A DNA stretch of 64,000 bases from an uncultured Pseudomonadota bacterium. Lineage in GTDB: Bacteria > Pseudomonadota > Gammaproteobacteria > Xanthomonadales > Wenzhouxiangellaceae. Positions 40,580-50,880 of this stretch are shown here, piece by piece. Location: NCBI GenBank assembly GCA_937138395.1, contig CAKZPB010000077.1, positions 1 to 64,000 of the forward strand, read 5' to 3'. The notes under the pieces are model-generated. The model had not been told where the DNA came from. It ran no database searches and saw only the letters and a program-made list of their open reading frames with translations. Position 1 is the first letter of the stretch, and the number at the start of each line of letters is the position of its first letter. Position numbers and translations under genes: made by a program.

Positions 40580-41671
40580 ATGAAGCTAACTGCATTGCTT
40601 ACTCGCTATCTTGTGTCGGCCTCACTGTCGGCCGTTGTTCAGGTTGGTTTGATCCTGGGCGGACTGTATCTGACCTTCCAGCTGGTGCGCGAGCTTGGGG
40701 ATCTGGAAGGAGGCTATGGCGTTGTTCAGATGTTGGCTTATCTGTTGCGCACGTTCCCGACGGGCTTGTACGACATGTTTCCGTTCATTGTGCTGATCGG
40801 CTGCATGATTGCAGCCGGCCGGCTGGCTTCCAGTCATGAGCTGGTGGCCATGCGTGCCAGCGGATTTGATCGAAGGCACATTGCTTCCAGAATCATGCTG
40901 GTGGTGCTGGGGCTTTCATTGTTCATGATGGCCATGGCCGAGTGGTGGATGCCCGCGCTCGAAATGAACGCCAGAGCCGATCGCGAACAGGCCCGCAGCG
41001 GCCAGTTGTCGGCCAGCCAGGGTCGGGAAATCTGGATTCGTGATGCGAATCGCATGATCCAGGCTGAATTGCTGGTCAACGATCCAGCGCTGGGCGTTCG
41101 ATTTGCCAATCTGCAGTTCTATGAACTCAACGACCGCTATCGGCCAGTACAGCTGGTCCACGCCCGCTTTGCAGTCCATCAGGATCGGCAGTGGCGATTG
41201 CAGGAAGTGCAACGGATGAGCATGGCTGCTACCCGGGCTGCGAATCAAGTTCGGCTGGCGAAACAAGAATCGCTGGTGCTGGAGTCATCGATCAATCCTG
41301 ACGTGTTCCTGGCGTTGTCAACCCGGCCACGACTGATGTCGATGCGGGATATCCGCCGGATCTCGGGCTACCTTGACCAGAATGAACTGGATACCTCGCG
41401 CTATCAGGAAGCATTCTGGCGGCGCCTGTTTTATCCGCTGAATATACTGGCCATGGTGTTGGCCGGATTGCCGCTGCTATTTCGAGCGGACCGTCAGTTG
41501 GCTCCAGCCACCAGTGTCTTTGCAGGCATTGCAGTCGGCATTGCATTCTTTATAGTCTGGCGTACGGTAACCGGATTATCCGGGCTGTTGCCATTGCCGC
41601 TATGGCAATTCCATCTTGTACCGGCAGTGCTGTTTATCGGGTTCGGGTTGTGGCGGCTGCAAAAGGGATGA
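40580..41671 (+). CDS. lptG: LPS export permease LptG
   Basis: The 363-residue protein is the second permease subunit of the LPS transporter. It begins LTALLTRYLVSASLSAVVQVGLIL and has the coupling stretch ASSHELVAMRASGFDRRHIA, a periplasmic domain with QGREIWIRDANRMIQAELLV, and three final helices ending LPLPLWQFHLVPAVLFIGFGLWRL. Paired with lptF, as in nearly all gammaproteobacteria. The 385-base gap downstream is filled by a MITE-like repeat. Confidence 0.93.
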   Translation: MKLTALLTRYLVSASLSAVVQVGLILGGLYLTFQLVRELGDLEGGYGVVQMLAYLLRTFPTGLYDMFPFIVLIGCMIAAGRLASSHELVAMRASGFDRRHIASRIMLVVLGLSLFMMAMAEWWMPALEMNARADREQARSGQLSASQGREIWIRDANRMIQAELLVNDPALGVRFANLQFYELNDRYRPVQLVHARFAVHQDRQWRLQEVQRMSMAATRAANQVRLAKQESLVLESSINPDVFLALSTRPRLMSMRDIRRISGYLDQNELDTSRYQEAFWRRLFYPLNILAMVLAGLPLLFRADRQLAPATSVFAGIAVGIAFFIVWRTVTGLSGLLPLPLWQFHLVPAVLFIGFGLWRLQKG

Positions 41672-41722: not shown

Positions 41723-42004
41723 TCAAGGAACCTCTGGATAACTATACCCGGGCGCGACGGGTCTTTGCGGGAGGCTCCGGCGCGGCTTGGGCGAGTGCCG
41801 TTTGGTCATTCCAAATAAGCGAGTCCAAACGAGGCGGAGGCCCCGCGAAGCTCCGTCCCCTAAGGGTTTCACCGGAAAAACTGCATCTCGCACGTCGCGC
41901 CACTCGGCCGTAGCTACGGCTACTGTCACTCGCGTCGCACCACACGATCTGCGGCTTTTCTGACTGAAGCGCGCTCAGAGCATAGTTATTCAGAGGTTAC
42001 TTAA
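41723..42004. mobile_element. MITE-like element, copy 1 (282 bp)
   Basis: This occupies most of the 41672-42056 gap. The ends are inverted repeats of 23 bases with 20 matches: the left end (41723-41745) contains AACCTCTGGATAACTAT and the right end (41982-42004) its reversed near-copy ATAGTTATTCAGAGGTT. The interior holds a 12-bp palindrome CCGTAGCTACGG (near 41908) and a GC-rich block shared with the second copy at 50539-50880, including GAGGCGGAGGCCCCGC. There is no long reading frame or transposase. The remaining bases of the gap show nothing. Confidence 0.75.
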
Positions 42005-50538: not shown

Positions 50539-50880
50539 GTAAATAACCCCTGAATACCTCTGCACGGGTGCGCCGGCGGATTTGCAGGATACGCCGGCTT
50601 GCCTTGGGTGAGTACCGATAGGGTTCACAATCGATTGTTCCAAATTGTCGAGTCCGCCTGTCATCACAATCGAGGCGGAGGCCCCGCAGAAGCCCGTTCC
50701 GCATGGCGATTGAAATAACAGGCCTGATGAGAAGCGTGATACCAAGCGGCCGGAAAGTAGCAGCTCGCACGCTGCGATCTTCGGCCGTAGCTACGTCTAC
50801 TGTCTTTCAGATCGCACCAAACGATCTGCGGCGTTCTGACTGAAACGCGCTCGGTGCAGAGTTGTTCAGAGGTTCCTTAA
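50539..50880. mobile_element. MITE-like element, copy 2 (342 bp)
   Basis: Left end 50539-50565 and right end 50854-50880 are 27-base inverted repeats with 21 matches, sharing CTCTGCAC near the inner border and the AACCTCTG-like block with copy 1. The interior shares GAGGCGGAGGCCCCGC, the GGCCGTAGCTACG palindromic block and GATCTGCGGC with 41723-42004. No transposase or long frame lies inside. It fills most of the 484-base gap 50458-50941, the rest being the dsbC terminator and the purL promoter region. The right end is 23 bases before the purL -10. Confidence 0.75.

Follow-up and report, generated by a model that had tools for sequence, protein, structure and literature searches.

A noncoding element between lptG and an RDD-family gene

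The DNA analysed here, a stretch of 64,000 nucleotides referred to as the window, carries lptG and a convergent gene for an RDD-family membrane protein, with a block lying between them that the initial annotation had described as MITE-like and placed at 41723-42004. These coordinates proved exact. The block begins 51 bp after the lptG stop, and 52 bp separate it from the 3' end of the RDD gene. It reads as TCAA, a 274-bp element and TTAA, that is, an element within a 4-bp target duplication whose two copies differ at one position. The features are as follows.

40580-41671, plus strand: lptG (LptF_LptG family), upstream neighbour of copy 1
41723-41726: left target-site duplication, TCAA, one mismatch against the right copy, TTAA
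41727-42000, plus strand: MITE copy 1, 274 bp, without coding content
41727-41751, plus strand: left terminal inverted repeat, 25 bp, GGAACCTCTGGATAACTATACCCGG, matching the right end at 20/25 positions
41757-41860 (approximate): inner stem 1, pairs of alignment columns 37-161
41871-41965 (approximate): inner stem 2, with GTAGCTACG at its apex, alignment columns 215-321
41976-42000, minus strand: right terminal inverted repeat
42001-42004: right target-site duplication, TTAA
42057-42554, minus strand: RDD-family membrane protein, convergent downstream neighbour of copy 1
50539-50880, plus strand: MITE copy 2, with extra insertions, element at 50543-50876 bounded by GTAA/TTAA, lying between a dsbC-like and a purL-like gene

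Copy 1 falls within the size range of MITEs (70-300 bp, noncoding), and the block contains no ORF of at least 100 aa, in agreement with the earlier view that it holds no gene. Its 25-bp terminal inverted repeats also fall within the expected range (15-30 bp), and they are near-perfect in young copies from relatives. The ends had been described as 23 bases long with 20 matches, which holds if the 4-bp target duplication is counted in; the first four bases, however, belong to that duplication and not to the inverted end. By a hand calculation, ends of copy-1 quality are expected by chance about once per 64-kb window, so that the reality of copy 1 rests on the family described below and not on its ends alone. 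We observed no terminator-like site between the convergent lptG and RDD genes, and no sign that the element acts as a terminator.

The element belongs to a dispersed family

From two copies in the window, a family with many members had been predicted, and a BLAST search of the genome, a full-length IS with the same ends and the target-site duplications had been named as checks. The search of the genome itself gave 19 matches at about 18 places, most of them 70-84% alike, and together with the alignment it confirmed that the copy at 50539-50880 is a relative of copy 1. Copy 2 reaches 342 bp because of its extra insertions. Two of these, CCGCCTGTCATCACAATCG and GGCGATTGAAATAACAGGC (window positions 50650-50760), lie on both sides of one stem and are nearly complementary; thus, the stem is lengthened on both arms.

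Multiple dispersed copies, as expected of a MITE, were also found outside this genome. The element is present in 30 of 61 relatives, at up to 88% identity to the window copy, and the best of these copies are closer to it than its own-genome siblings are. A sequence-model search across 299 genomes of the order was positive in 46, strongly in Wenzhouxiangellaceae and two genomes of another family and more weakly elsewhere, and the named records carrying the core motif are Wenzhouxiangella and related MAGs. Judged by this distribution, the element is largely a Wenzhouxiangellaceae family, found in most genomes searched there and more sporadically elsewhere in the order. Outside Wenzhouxiangellaceae, full-length copies occur in G189 and G205, which belong to family f8 of this order (E about 1e-52 and 1e-64, respectively); they may point to an older origin or to horizontal transfer. 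When the 2 kb around the element were used as query against plasmids, no matches were returned, and among the papers listed by a literature search none dealt with MITEs of Wenzhouxiangella.

Two kinds of variant were seen among the relatives. Long forms in G015 (L105:1501-1914; also L101, L107, L091 and L111) carry an extra palindromic element of ~65 bp, GCGCCGTTTCGTGCCAGG...GCGCCTGGTGACGAAACGATCAGCGCGT, which sits at two distinct sites within the MITE, the GTAGC apex being one. It has the appearance of a REP-like hairpin in its own right, with the MITE as its target. In addition, L072 and L086, from different genomes, each have a variant block in the inter-stem spacer at alignment columns 155-175, and the two blocks are almost identical (GCGCCGGCCCTTCGGG / GCGCCGGCCCTCCGGG).

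Ends and target sites match IS5-group insertion sequences of relatives

In an alignment of the ends and flanks of 48 copies, the borders of the element are GGRRCCTCTGAAYAA-type ends. The 4-bp flanks match or nearly match, being mostly CTAG, CTAA, TTAG or TTAA (YTAR-type), and where a copy has unusual flanks, its left and right flanks are still alike (CCAG/CCAG, CTTG/CTTG, ATAA/ATAA). The target duplications are thus 4 bp and of YTAR type in most copies, with copy 1 differing by its one mismatch.

Complete insertion sequences with such ends were found in relatives, but not in the window's own genome. They are ~1.16 kb long and encode a transposase of 316-319 aa with DUF772 and DDE_Tnp_1 domains. 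The G016 element (L127:1437-2596) carries GGAGCCTCTGAATAA at both ends, with CTAA as target on both sides; these ends are identical to many MITE ends, including 15/15 positions of the GGAGCC-type copies, and the MITE copies L051 and L052 have 26 bp in common with its right end at 96%. The G001 and G017 elements have GGAARCTCTGAAYAA ends with YTAR flanks and differ from the MITE ends at one or two positions. The IS5 group is defined by a YTAR target of 4 bp, and the features of the partner elements fit this group of the IS5 family. They resemble the MITE in end sequence and target, and differ from it in encoding a transposase, the MITE being a non-autonomous passenger. No IS or transposase with these ends was found in the window's own genome (G000), a 142-contig draft that can lose repeats, and no partner IS was detectable in most MITE-rich relatives.

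Minimal forms of the ends also exist. At G015:C1:302307-302361 (L114), two IS5-type ends face each other with next to nothing in between and form a palindrome of ~50-55 bp flanked by CTAG/CTGG, and a similar, looser palindrome of ~50-55 bp lies at L123:3160-3209 in G017. Since such two-ended forms exist, the ends alone appear to suffice.

Insertion sites and history of copy 1

The sites of both window copies are empty in relatives, as would be expected for a MITE. Where relatives yielded both genes on one locus, lptG converges on the adjacent RDD gene across a short gap without the element, and dsbC and purL, which flank copy 2, are likewise adjacent without one. Because the lptG-RDD site is empty in the compared relatives, copy 1 most likely inserted there in the window's own lineage.

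A stop-free span of at least 500 bp runs through the rejoined site in 33% of 49 copies, versus 81% at random window positions. These shorter spans indicate that most copies are intergenic; about six may interrupt a gene.

The initial annotation had made mobilisation conditional on the element being still active. In this genome, where no partner transposase was found, it appears inactive: the missing transposase, the divergence of the copies and the empty sites of related species suggest that copy 1 is probably a fossil here.

The two arms covary

Across the copies, the left and right ends match each other at 1049 positions, versus 951 expected under random dealing (2000 shuffles, largest value 981). 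Over the consensus fold, double changes occur in 39 of 70 pairs, with 209 double-change cells compared with 54 in shuffled data and 14-32 with slid partners. By parsimony, on a tree built from unpaired columns, we counted 95 changes from one Watson-Crick pair to another (42 in the ends, 53 inside) versus 2-5 with slid partners, a control that has fewer pairable cells and serves as a rough guide. Among pairs of copies that differ by 5-10%, 350 changes are two-sided and 340 one-sided, where 49 two-sided changes would be expected if the sides were independent, the pairwise counts being mutually dependent.

The balance differs with age. Older own-genome copies show 80 single and 27 double changes, whereas the remaining, younger copies show 70 single and 143 double changes. 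Since single changes dominate in the old copies and double changes in the others, pairing appears to have been maintained while the element was mobile and to have been lost once a copy had inserted.

One explanation would be that the element is a mobile structured noncoding RNA, whose transcript fold is conserved and whose ends merely spread it. The whole element folds better than shuffled sequences on both strands (z -6.6 and -4.3), and the double changes lie far above both shuffled and slid structures. However, a single selected transcript should tolerate G-U and avoid A-C on its strand throughout, and the pairs common to the folds of both strands contain 65 G-U and 58 A-C cells. When the pairs of both folds are pooled, G-U is favoured on the plus strand in stem 1 and on the minus strand in stem 2, leanings that are partly built in by structure choice; the ends are even at 42/42. 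The mismatch types on both strands thus give no support to selection on a single transcript; the older copies have moreover lost their pairing, and we consider this explanation unlikely. An Rfam search with the element gave no match even at E 10. An apparent plus-strand RNA signature (122 G-U versus 27 A-C in the inner stems) was discarded: with the reverse-strand fold the bias was inverted (27 versus 274), which makes the signature a product of structure choice.

The covariation may be better explained by concerted evolution of the arms, or by selection acting while the element was mobile, than by one transcribed RNA. We tentatively propose as one possible source a mutational route, in which template switching or correction in hairpins during replication or transposition would keep the arms in concert and generate covariation without RNA selection. 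Template switching is known to make the arms of imperfect palindromes more alike (PMC8794818, PMC8604942), and it would also account for the matched insertions on both stem sides of copy 2. The decay of the old copies is not accounted for by template switching alone.

A new MITE family of a known type

It is very unlikely that the element is a decayed IS, derived from a full-length one by an internal deletion that removed the transposase. Its ends and target agree with IS5-group elements, but its similarity to the IS found stops about 15-26 bp in from the ends, with unrelated interiors, and one 274-bp form recurs in dozens of copies and many species. Because only the ends are held in common, the MITE is not a simple internal deletion of the IS found. 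A REP/BIME- or ERIC-type intergenic repeat moving without an IS-type transposase would likewise be palindromic, mostly intergenic and present in many copies, and is hardly tenable in view of the 4-bp target duplications and the ends common with IS5-group IS, which depart from the REP definition.

With high confidence, we regard the element as a MITE that was most likely moved in trans by an IS5-group transposase, inserted at YTAR-like sites and since decayed here. The identification as a MITE, put forward at the outset, is supported by the ends, the target duplications, the copy number and the empty sites in relatives, and its mobilisation in trans by the full-length IS in relatives with matching ends and target. 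Our model suggests that the transposase of an IS5-group IS with the same 15-bp tips would bind the MITE ends and insert the element at YTAR-like sites, producing the 4-bp target duplication. Insertion between lptG and the RDD gene in the window's lineage would have been followed by decay, and no matching transposase is found in the genome today. We infer both the part of the IS5-group transposase and the present inactivity of copy 1.

The closest described relative in kind is MITEPsy1 of Pseudomonas syringae pv. phaseolicola, a 100-bp MITE of probable IS5 type with imperfect 18-bp repeats, which transposes in vivo with a transposase probably supplied by the IS5-family IS ISPsy2 (PMC3189936). 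Its ends (GGAAGGTCTGAAAAAGCC / GTATCCTCTGAAAAAGCC) have a TCTGAA core in common with the present family, and its target, a 4-bp duplication at CTAG or YTAA, is of the same kind (PMC3189936). MITEPsy1 differs in size and in the detail of its ends, the present family having 274 bp, 25-bp co-varying ends and structured inner stems. As generally described, ERIC/NEMIS/QMITE-type MITEs have other ends and target sites. They are likewise non-coding and mostly intergenic, with a stem-loop formed by the whole element (review PMC10969869).

As judged from these comparisons, the element is an ordinary MITE and a new family of a well-known type. It adds an IS5-type MITE family with identified partner elements, and explains an intergenic repeat that is dispersed in Wenzhouxiangellaceae. 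Only the concerted arms merit a specialist's second look. They caution that covariation by itself is no proof of a functional RNA, and they offer material for separating template-switch mutation (PMC8794818, PMC8604942) from selection. If the mutational route is true, the range of ages among its copies would make this family a natural system in which to test it.
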